NCBI RefSeq assembly: GCF_040362915.1 | Contig: NZ_AP029612.1 | Location: 868,001-932,000, forward strand | Length of the DNA: 64,000 nt | From: Sediminibacterium sp. KACHI17 | Lineage (GTDB): Bacteria > Bacteroidota > Bacteroidia > Chitinophagales > Chitinophagaceae | Direction: 5' to 3' | Part shown: positions 32,944 through 34,396 of the stretch, one piece after another | Position numbering within the stretch: position 1 is the first letter of the stretch | How the letters are laid out: the number at the start of each line of letters is the position of its first letter | Notes under the pieces: generated by a model | Told to the model about the DNA's origin: nothing | Database searches by the model: none | The model's input: the letters and a program-made list of their open reading frames with translations, nothing else | Program-made: the position numbers and the translations under genes

Positions 32944-33018
32944 GGGAGCATAGCTCAGTTGGTTTAGAGCATCTGCCTTACAAGCAGAGGGTCCGCGGTT
33001 CGAACCCGTGTGCTCCCA
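32944..33018 (+). tRNA. tRNA-Val (anticodon TAC)
   Basis: A complete cloverleaf is readable: acceptor stem GGGAGCA/TGCTCCC, D arm GCTC/GAGC, anticodon arm TCTGC-CTTACAA-GCAGA (anticodon TAC, valine), a 5-nt variable loop, and T arm CGCGG-TTCGAAC-CCGTG, with discriminator A at 33018. CCA is not encoded after this copy; the next bases are CAGAAT. Its 3' portion is repeated twice downstream. Confidence 0.97.
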
Positions 33019-33031
33019 CAGAATAAAAAAA

Positions 33032-33059
33032 CCATCCACTTCTTGTGGATGGTTTTTTT
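33032..33059 (+). terminator. Intrinsic terminator of tRNA-Val
   Basis: An 8-bp stem CCATCCAC/GTGGATGG with loop TTCTT (33032-33052) is followed by seven T residues. It is preceded by A7, so it may work on both strands. Confidence 0.9.
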
Positions 33060-33154
33060 ATGCCCAGCATAAACTCAGTTTCTTTAGTGCATCCCGACTT
33101 CAGTCGGGAGGGGCCGCGGTTCGAACCCGTGTGCTCCCACAGAATAAAAAAAAA

Positions 33155-33182
33155 CCATCCACTTCTTGTGGATGGTTTTTTT
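33155..33182 (+). terminator. Second copy of the tRNA-Val terminator
   Basis: The same stem-loop as at 33032 is carried on the second repeat unit with a T7 run (33155-33182). It lies 123 nt downstream of the first. Confidence 0.85.
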
Positions 33183-33336
33183 ATGCCCAGCATAAACTCA
33201 GTTTCTTTAGTGCATCCCGACTTCAGTCGGGAGGGGCCGCGGTTCGAACCCGTGTGCTCCCACCAAAAAAATATCTCCCTTTGACGGATGTTTTTTTATT
33301 CATCCATTTTTACGGTTTCATTATTGATTCGATCTA

Positions 33337-33348: not shown

Positions 33349-33654
33349 ATGACCGTAATTGTGAATACGACTTCCCCACGTCCATGGGAATCACAGGATG
33401 AAGATGTGATGGTTGAAACCACCACCCCTTATCAGTTGATCGTGTGGAATGACGAAGTGAATACTTTCGAATGGGTCATCGAAACTTTGATGGAAGTCTG
33501 CGGACATTCTCATGAACAAGCAGAACAAAGCGCGCTTATCATTCACTTTCAGGGTAAATACGCAGTCAAAAAAGGCGATTACGATACCCTCAAACCCATG
33601 TGTGATGCCATCACAGACCGCGGTATTGGTGCAACTATAGAAAACATAAAATAA
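33349..33654 (+). CDS. clpS: ATP-dependent Clp protease adaptor ClpS
   Basis: A 101-residue adaptor that delivers N-degron substrates to ClpAP in the cytoplasm. The flexible N-terminal tail precedes the ClpS core: PYQLIVWNDEVNTFEWVIET (the NDxxxT motif binding the N-terminal residue), then CGHSHEQAEQSALIIHFQGK and YAVKKGDYDTLKPMCDAITD. It is followed after 97 nt by aat, which adds Leu or Phe to protein N-termini; the pair makes a bacterial N-end-rule module. Its promoter may be the -7-like box at 33337. Confidence 0.96.
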   Translation: MTVIVNTTSPRPWESQDEDVMVETTTPYQLIVWNDEVNTFEWVIETLMEVCGHSHEQAEQSALIIHFQGKYAVKKGDYDTLKPMCDAITDRGIGATIENIK

Positions 33655-33747
33655 GAAATAAGAAACAGAGAAATGAGAAAGTATTTCAATTAATCAACTA
33701 ATATCATTTCATATTCCTTATTTCATATTCCTTATTTCTCATTTTGT
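33655..33747. repeat. Inverted TTATTTC/AAATGAGAAA word repeat between clpS and aat
   Basis: The clpS-aat spacer starts AATAAGAAATAAGAAACAGA and ends TATTCCTTATTTCTCATTTT. Arms 33671-33680 (AAATGAGAAA) and 33735-33744 pair perfectly around a 54-nt AT-rich loop. The pyrimidine-rich half repeats CATATTCCTTATTT twice. It is related in word content to 30226-30312. Confidence 0.65.
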
Positions 33748-33751
33748 ATTT

Positions 33752-34396
33752 ATGCCTTTACACGCTCTCACTTCCACTCTCTGGTTTCCTCCTGTCTCAG
33801 ATGCTTTGGAAGATGGATTATTGGCCATGGGTGGAGATGTTTCCGTTGAAAGATTGTTACTGGCCTATCGCAATGGTATCTTTCCATGGTATGATGATAC
33901 TCCCCCATTATGGTGGAGCCCCGATCCAAGATTTGTATTGATACCTGATGAATTGAAAGTAAGCAAAAGCATGCAACAGCTCATCAAGAAGAAAACATTT
34001 ACATTCAAAACCAATACTGCTTTTGGTGATGTCATTACGCATTGCCAATCACTCCCTAGAAAAGGCCAAGATGGGACATGGATCACTGAGGAATTAAAAG
34101 AGGCTTTCATTGAACTACATCAACTTGGACATGCACATTCTGCGGAAACATGGGTCAATGATGAATTAGTAGGCGGCTTGTATGGTATTAAAATGGGACC
34201 TTTCTTTTTCGGAGAAAGCATGTTCAGCAAAGTGAGTAATGCCAGCAAATTTGCTTTCATTCATTGGGTAAAACAATTACAGCAAGAAGGGATAATACTT
34301 ATCGATTGCCAGGTACATACCGACCACCTGGAAAGCCTTGGTGCAAAAATGATTCCGAGAGCGCATTTTATTCGGTTGCTTAAACAACATATCTAG
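33752..34396 (+). CDS. aat: Leucyl/phenylalanyl-tRNA--protein transferase
   Basis: A 214-residue L/F-transferase that attaches Leu or Phe from aminoacyl-tRNA to N-terminal Arg or Lys, making substrates for ClpS. Characteristic blocks: FPPVSDALEDGLLAMGGDVS, LLLAYRNGIFPWYDD, PLWWSPDPRFVL, HSAETWVNDELVGGLYGI and FFFGESMFSKVSNASKFAFI. The length is normal for Bacteroidota. It is the second gene of the clpS-aat pair. A CTCTGCGGT repeat lies in the convergent spacer to DUF4294. Confidence 0.95.
   Translation: MPLHALTSTLWFPPVSDALEDGLLAMGGDVSVERLLLAYRNGIFPWYDDTPPLWWSPDPRFVLIPDELKVSKSMQQLIKKKTFTFKTNTAFGDVITHCQSLPRKGQDGTWITEELKEAFIELHQLGHAHSAETWVNDELVGGLYGIKMGPFFFGESMFSKVSNASKFAFIHWVKQLQQEGIILIDCQVHTDHLESLGAKMIPRAHFIRLLKQHI

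Follow-up and report, generated by a model that had tools for sequence, protein, structure and literature searches.

Hairpin-bearing tRNA-Val copies in Sediminibacterium sp. KACHI17 as probable ORF-less relatives of GIY-YIG homing elements that swap tRNA halves

Group I introns sit in the anticodon loops of tRNA genes together with homing endonucleases, and REP palindromes are short GC-rich sequences spread by RAYT transposases, which are HuH enzymes. Integrative elements reportedly use tRNA genes as attachment sites, where, as Williams is said to have set out in 2002, a tRNA fragment carried by the element restores the gene. The units described here, found at a tRNA-Val gene and further tRNA genes of Sediminibacterium sp. 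KACHI17, recall each of these. With group I introns they share insertion in the anticodon loop and a homing logic, but the tRNA would here be rebuilt by a carried half and not by splicing, and no intron was found or, on this reasoning, is expected. A carried tRNA fragment that restores the gene is likewise a trait of the tRNA-attachment elements, yet here a GIY-YIG ORF takes the place of the integrase, a hairpin takes that of the anticodon arm in the displaced copy, and either half of the tRNA can be the one carried. REP/RAYT systems also pair short GC palindromes with a nuclease-type partner, although in our case the partner is GIY-YIG instead of HuH and the palindrome lies inside tRNA copies.

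Among T-even phages, SegB is a free-standing GIY-YIG homing endonuclease whose gene lies beside and between phage tRNA genes with no preference for a tRNA isotype, and which cleaves DNA that contains tRNAs and causes a tRNA segment to be amplified in tandem through homologous recombination, according to the portions of the reports at hand (PMC13096335, PMC2988022). To judge by this description, the elements considered here likewise place a GIY-YIG gene beside tRNA genes, but they are chromosomal, sit inside the tRNA gene and have nuclease lineages that track the tRNA; furthermore, a swapped tRNA half, a hairpin junction and ORF-less units are not part of SegB as described there. Fungal mitochondria harbour the mORF elements, at atp6 of Allomyces and at atp6, atp9, cox2 and nad3 of Glomus, in which an endonuclease ORF brings along a substitute for the 3' part of its host gene while the native 3' part is displaced downstream and matches close relatives; their hosts are protein-coding mitochondrial genes, and the endonucleases are of the LAGLIDADG type except for a GIY-YIG enzyme at atp9, as far as the consulted part of that account extends (PMC3630166). 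The same three traits, namely a carried replacement 3' part, a displaced native part and the match of the latter to close relatives, recur in our elements, whereas the junction hairpin, the mirror-image 5' type and the multi-copy ORF-less units find no counterpart in the mORFs as described there. Within those portions, the mORF gene swap (PMC3630166) offers a precedent for the half-gene swap proposed below, and the SegB-driven amplification of tRNA segments (PMC13096335) one for the proposed formation of tandem and ORF-less units. In the open-licence PMC literature, searched by title and abstract start, we found no description of GIY-YIG elements with tRNA halves in bacteria, which is not proof of their absence.

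The window, that is the whole 64,000-nt stretch of KACHI17 DNA that was analysed, contains a functional tRNA-Val(TAC) gene on the forward strand at 32944..33019 (ARAGORN; Rfam RF00005, 70.8 bits); a scan of the window with Rfam returned no family except tRNA above the gathering score. Downstream of the gene follow, on the same strand, a computed terminator-like stem with 17-nt arms (33023..33061) and two tandem units that are 93% identical over 123 nt. In the first unit, an eroded copy of tRNA-Val positions 4-30, the acceptor/D-arm side (33066..33093), runs into the hairpin TCCCGACTTCAGTCGGGA (33092..33109, genome 901092-901109, located by pattern scan), which occupies the position of the anticodon arm and leads into a displaced tRNA-Val 3' half composed of the T arm and the acceptor 3' strand (tRNA positions 44-76; 33108..33140), then AG. 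A second computed terminator-like stem (33148..33182) precedes the second unit, in which the copy of positions 4-30 (33189..33216) is identical to the first in its letters, the hairpin TCCCGACTTCAGTCGGGA recurs (33215..33232, genome 901215-901232, again by pattern scan), and the last 3' half, recognised as a repeat match (33231..33263), is followed by CA, giving a CCA end. By eye, an ATG after the first stem is common to the start region of the ORF-bearing elements treated below.

An earlier note, written from the letters of this stretch, had reported that the tRNA tail recurs twice downstream, that each unit carries an 18-nt palindrome and that CCA follows only the last tail. All three observations stand: the tails start in register at 32987, 33108 and 33231, with a spacing of 121 and 123 nt, over 41 nt the second copy shares 98% and the third 90% identity with the first, and CAG follows the first two. 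The terminator that the note ascribed to each repeat unit is present as a stem behind the first two tails; the third tail has a different and, by eye, imperfect terminator-like stem. The note's further claim, that the repeats leave out the 5' half of the tRNA, turned out to be wrong, as the supposed linker at 33066-33093 matches tRNA-Val positions 4-30 in 23 of 28 columns with a score of 17, while none of 20,000 shuffles scored as high (maximum 16). Because this linker aligns to the tRNA, each 123-nt unit is, judged from its sequence, a copy of tRNA-Val in which the outer 3' half is intact, the inner 5' half is eroded and a hairpin replaces the anticodon arm. We consider it probable, at roughly 0.7, that the two units are decayed or non-autonomous copies, devoid of the ORF, of free-standing GIY-YIG homing elements that are each specific for one tRNA and replace one of its halves.

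Both units fold stably as RNA (z of -2.8 and -2.7) and would lie downstream of the tRNA promoter if the terminators leak, which would suit their retention as functional tRNA-like RNAs, be it as decoys, as RNase sponges or as regulators of the downstream clpS-like gene; directly beyond the units (33349-34396) lie two ORFs that we take to be clpS-like and aat-like. This function appears very improbable to us, given that the units are patchy among close species, their inner halves are eroded, copies occur at unrelated tRNAs, and tRNA-Val and clpS lie on opposite strands in relatives having both at one locus. A conserved clpS regulatory element was also considered and rejected, as relatives lack the units and the orientation differs.

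Within the KACHI17 genome, a single 3.1-Mb contig whose DNA matches a Sediminibacterium MAG at 85.5% over 1300 nt, the unit sequence matches only its own locus; the idea of a feature unique to the window was rejected, the same architecture being present at nine other tRNA genes. Scanning 1000 nt on either side of the 34 KACHI17 tRNA genes revealed hairpin-bearing partial tRNA copies at 10 of them; of two complete relatives, G010 has such copies at one tRNA gene among 35 and G017 at none among 34. The KACHI17 sites are Asn, Lys, Arg-TCT, Val (2 units), Thr-TGT (4 units), Thr-GGT, fMet, Arg-CCT, Arg-CCG and Leu-GAG, altogether 14 units, which score 16-30 (shuffled flanks reach at most 12) and of which 13 were judged ORF-less by their short spacing. 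The 3' half is kept downstream at Lys, Val, fMet and Leu, the 5' half is kept upstream as a mirror image at Thr, Arg-CCT and Arg-CCG, and the upstream copies at Arg-TCT and Asn keep other parts. Integration at the tRNA 3' end with an untouched 5' half, as formerly suggested, does not agree with this picture, as the junction lies in the anticodon arm and the mirror units duplicate the 5' half upstream. Moreover, 14 of the 15 partial tRNA copies beside KACHI17 tRNA genes adjoin a hairpin of the TCC/CCC type, the exception lying at another tRNA-Met.

Hairpins of the form TCCC(G/C)A..T(G/C)GGGA occur at 26 KACHI17 sites, as opposed to one for a reversed-pattern control; 13 of the sites lie within tRNA copies, one of which is Asp-like and without a tRNA. 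The same two hairpin types (TCCCGA..TCGGGA and TCCCCAC..GTGGGGA) are thus alike across different tRNAs of one genome, which is unexpected from tRNA-specific homing alone and favours another reading, in which the mobile part is a REP/MITE-like palindrome that enters anticodon arms, duplicates part of the tRNA as it does so, and owes its movement to an unrelated enzyme or to the GIY-YIG protein as a palindrome transposition factor, the tRNA halves being by-products. We regard this as unlikely, for the remaining 13 sites fall outside tRNA copies, several of them resembling terminators or structured RNAs by eye, and, as detailed below, the hairpin stem varies with the tRNA family and the nuclease lineage tracks the tRNA. 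By eye, the TCCCGA..TCGGGA hairpin is seen in what are presumably a TPP-riboswitch-like (L155, ~1132530) and an RNase-P-RNA-like (L149, ~773127) locus on G000:C1.

At tRNA-fMet, upstream of an era-like gene, 2 of 29 loci with a visible tRNA (KACHI17 and G066) bear an ORF-containing element, and the KACHI17 locus was compared with those of relatives. The flank of the KACHI17 orphan tail scores 41, 41, 45 and 60 against the empty loci of G013, G069, G033 and G070 (null maxima 19-23), whereas that of the functional tail reaches 17-26 against these near empty loci (null maxima 20-24), at which no extra tail copy or hairpin was found. Four further loci (L273, L274, L283, L296) lean the same way, less strongly, and five relatives (L279, L284-L287) show the opposite, with 29-32 for the functional versus 18-23 for the orphan flank, a difference that we tentatively attribute to terminator-like similarity. 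G066 shares the flank of the element (score 57), and most remaining loci are at null for both flanks; the comparison covered 25 of the 28 other loci with a visible tRNA, three on short contigs being set aside. Since the orphan-tail flank matches the near empty loci, the functional 3' half at fMet was most likely delivered by the element, and the orphan tail is the native one that it pushed aside. By analogy with fMet, the last tRNA-Val tail, in unit 2, is presumed to be the native one; a search for the native tail at Val itself by comparing terminators with relatives met flanks that could not be aligned by eye. The earlier proposal that every insertion adds a tail of its own and shifts the previous one downstream gains from the fMet comparison as to direction; two separate insertions at Val are not shown, as one insertion followed by tandem duplication fits equally well given the 93% identity of the units.

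At the Thr operon, 1 of 30 Thr-TGT loci and 2 of 28 Thr-GGT loci carry units, and the two at Thr-GGT are of opposite type (5' in KACHI17, 3' in G060). A second match to the Val tail occurs in only two of the 28 same-genus genomes with a Val match, namely KACHI17 and G010. Hence occupied and empty alleles of one conserved tRNA gene both exist for fMet, Thr-TGT, Thr-GGT and Val, and from their sequence distribution the units look like recent, lineage-specific gains. These data also bear on the possibility that an old tandem duplication of tRNA and terminator, by slippage or unequal recombination, left extra copies that decayed and in which the hairpin is incidental. The tandem order, the near identity of the units and the terminators duplicated along with the tail would all fit, and the earlier note had named the same two units in all relatives as the sign of such an origin; most relatives lack units, with nearly all of those examined having none at Val, Thr or fMet. 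Decay confined to the inner half is also unlike the outcome of random decay, the hairpin adjoins nearly every partial copy in KACHI17, and ORF-bearing versions with the same junction exist in several phyla, so that we hold a decayed duplication to be quite improbable.

An ORF-bearing version is found at KACHI17 tRNA-fMet, where the gene is followed by a terminator, an 81-aa GIY-YIG ORF, the hairpin TCCGCCTGAGGCGGA and a second tail, and the tRNA-Val element of G010 comprises an 83-aa GIY-YIG ORF, an eroded D arm, the hairpin TCCCGCCTTCGGCGGGA and a tail copy. Their ORFs match Pfam PF01541 with 61.8 and 49.3 bits, respectively (curated cut-off 22.6). This membership holds for the ORF-bearing relatives; the window units contain no such ORF, and since no GIY-YIG remnant was recognised in ORF-less units, their descent from ORF-bearing elements is argued from the shared architecture. 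The earlier guess that the units are remnants or minimal forms of a tRNA-inserting element with a GIY-YIG partner is supported by these two elements and others like them.

Across the genus, 20 of 25 short GIY-YIG loci lie at most 400 nt from a tRNA (L135 on the opposite strand, L136 at 316 nt), and 12 of these 20 show a copy of a tRNA half under the scan filter; the set comprises the short-frame matches except one of 227 aa and except G023:C120 and G076:C98, which lie at contig ends, and a 26th locus without tRNA, L098, was viewed separately. Among the five without a near tRNA, L112 has Ala-like and L097 Asp-like tRNA parts by eye, with no intact tRNA call. None of 17 UvrC-type GIY-YIG loci is near a tRNA. 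In the named genomes, 53 of 74 relatives of the fMet ORF have a tRNA close by, always on their own strand, and 39 of these show an orphan tRNA part past the ORF; the other 21 have no tRNA within 400 nt, some being cut by contig ends, and Met is over-represented in the set, the query having been a Met element. In a phylum sample not selected for tRNAs (29 loci plus 20 hand-picked, among the best matches listed), 15 of 49 loci had a tRNA close by and 12 of these an orphan part; the tRNAs represented, again among the best matches listed, are Lys, Val, Asp, Pro, Gln, Arg, Leu, Asn and Ser. Within the same matches, 34 of the 49 genes lie away from tRNAs, which counts against a tRNA-specific reading. 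Two Patescibacteria loci (L219, L221) are of the 5' type, and the architecture with a small GIY-YIG gene was found at tRNAs in Bacteroidota, Balneolota, Chlorobiota and Patescibacteria.

Of 34 GIY-YIG loci without a near tRNA, 17 are flanked on both sides by direct repeats of at least 16 nt, a count made without a chance control, and this would favour the palindrome as the mobile part; the scan took in 33 of the 34 tRNA-free phylum loci plus L130 and L112. By eye, the repeats flanking such loci (L242-L320 and L130, in various Bacteroidota) are often palindrome-like.

Fragments of tRNA genes left by integrating elements are widespread (PMC9897764), and the units might accordingly be what is left of integrase-dependent islands for which the tRNA served as attachment site. 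KACHI17 has a locus of this aspect at tRNA-Met(CAT) (G000:C1:2913921, L080, forward strand), which is followed by an insert of ~1.3 kb with, by eye, a histidine-kinase-like ORF; the insert ends in a copy reaching from the anticodon loop to the 3' end of tRNA-Met, more partial copies lie near both ends, and a hairpin of the TCC/CCC type was not found in it. As an account of the units themselves we deem island remnants extremely improbable: the ORF inside the elements is GIY-YIG, and no integrase was noticed on reading the loci, where the space between tRNA and orphan half held only the GIY-YIG ORF or too little room for an ORF; furthermore, 5' and 3' mirror types both occur, and a hairpin replaces the anticodon arm. 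Carriage by phages or plasmids was rejected as well, the fMet ORF matching only five phage records, all weak and four of them from Listeria phage, and two weak plasmid records.

Returning to the homing reading, the nucleases themselves appear to follow their tRNAs. A protein tree was built from 70 ORFs (17 genus, 38 named and 15 phylum rows) that bear 11 different tRNA labels. On this tree the label changes 15 times, compared with a shuffled mean of 35.3, and 0 of 200 shuffles were as low. Met, Pro, Asp and Val labels cluster (0 of 500 shuffles each for Pro, Asp and Val); Arg does not. The tree is a quick one from few columns, with many unresolved forks and long branches that meet, and its Met rows are over-sampled owing to the Met query; 15 of the 53 named tRNA-near loci (truncated matches and near-copies) were left off by hand, as were L105 and L127 (broken ORFs), L135 (tRNA on the opposite strand) and L138 (contig end), and the labels of L097 (Asp) and L134 (Ala) were assigned by hand. 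On sequence grounds, the GIY-YIG lineages track tRNA identity across hosts. The catalytic residues of GIY-YIG enzymes are tyrosines, an arginine and a glutamate, and Y5, Y16, G18, R26, H30 and E63 are invariant in 18 of 18 aligned ORFs. Pairwise dN/dS amounts to 0.06-0.10 for five pairs, a sixth pair gives 0.29, and seven more are saturated; by these ratios the ORFs are under purifying selection, and DNA cleavage is predicted. Among solved structures, profile comparison places the ORFs nearest to UPF0213 proteins, SLX1 and, weakly, I-TevI, and no NCBIfam cut-off was reached for five ORFs tried.

The hairpin follows the tRNA family in a comparable manner, with TCCGCC..GGCGGA at Met in Bacteroidota, Balneolota and Chlorobiota and TCACGC..GCGTGA at Pro (L225, L234, L240). 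At Met, TCCGCC(n)GGCGGA is present in 33 of 43 loci (three of the ten misses are at contig ends, seven are not), and of these 33, 24 have CATA (the anticodon and an A) before the hairpin, 7 a one-base variant of it and 2 another sequence.

In our reading, the element sits inside the tRNA gene at the anticodon arm. In the 3' type, the native 5' half is followed by an element-borne 3' half, a terminator, the GIY-YIG ORF, an eroded 5'-half copy, the GC hairpin and the displaced native 3' half, and the native 5' half and the element-borne 3' half together form the working tRNA; in the mirror-image 5' type, a displaced 5' half with its hairpin and the ORF precede the working tRNA. The sequences show this architecture, its return at many tRNAs in both orientations, nuclease lineages that follow the tRNA, recent gain and, at fMet, a displaced native tail, whereas the mechanism proposed next is inferred. 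The nuclease may cut an intact tRNA gene near the anticodon arm, and repair of the break by recombination with an element-bearing copy would copy the element in, the carried half keeping the tRNA functional. The hairpin, in turn, would deprive the displaced copy of its target in the anticodon arm and of its ability to fold as a tRNA. Recombination between direct repeats could yield tandem units, such as the two at Val and the four at Thr-TGT, deletion could produce ORF-less units, and these might be mobilised in trans. One point speaks against homing: the displaced copy has lost its anticodon arm to the hairpin, the rebuilt tRNA has an intact one, and if the nuclease cuts the tRNA gene, the rebuilt functional tRNA should stay a target.

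More tentatively, and as a possibility that we would not yet call probable, these elements may constitute a distinct class: GIY-YIG homing units, each specific for its tRNA, that enter essential tRNA genes at the anticodon arm, carry a 5' or 3' half, place a family-specific hairpin on the displaced copy, give rise to ORF-less units that amplify themselves and are mobilised in trans, occur from Bacteroidota to Patescibacteria and have undergone a recent burst in KACHI17. If true, bacterial chromosomes would contain a natural gene-drive-like element that targets essential tRNA genes and is made harmless by the half-tRNA swap, and the small GIY-YIG ORFs and half tRNAs beside tRNA genes of these bacteria would be explained. 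It would also call for caution among tRNA annotators over hairpin-bearing pseudo-tRNAs, and nucleases of ~80 aa whose lineages track tRNAs could serve in tests of cleavage specificity and tandem amplification.

Some arrangements are more complex. Several tRNAs are flanked by units on either side or have an ORF-bearing unit with ORF-less ones next to it (L129, L127, L134, L423), and L423, in G082, has two tandem units at a contig end. L097 (G000:C1:1203400-1204400) combines a GIY-YIG gene with its Asp-like tRNA parts and a duplicated terminator, and seems to be an element that lost or left its own tRNA. At L098 (G000:C1:1043800-1044800), a 95-aa GIY-YIG gene lies, away from any tRNA, in an array of palindrome-containing units of ~120 nt.
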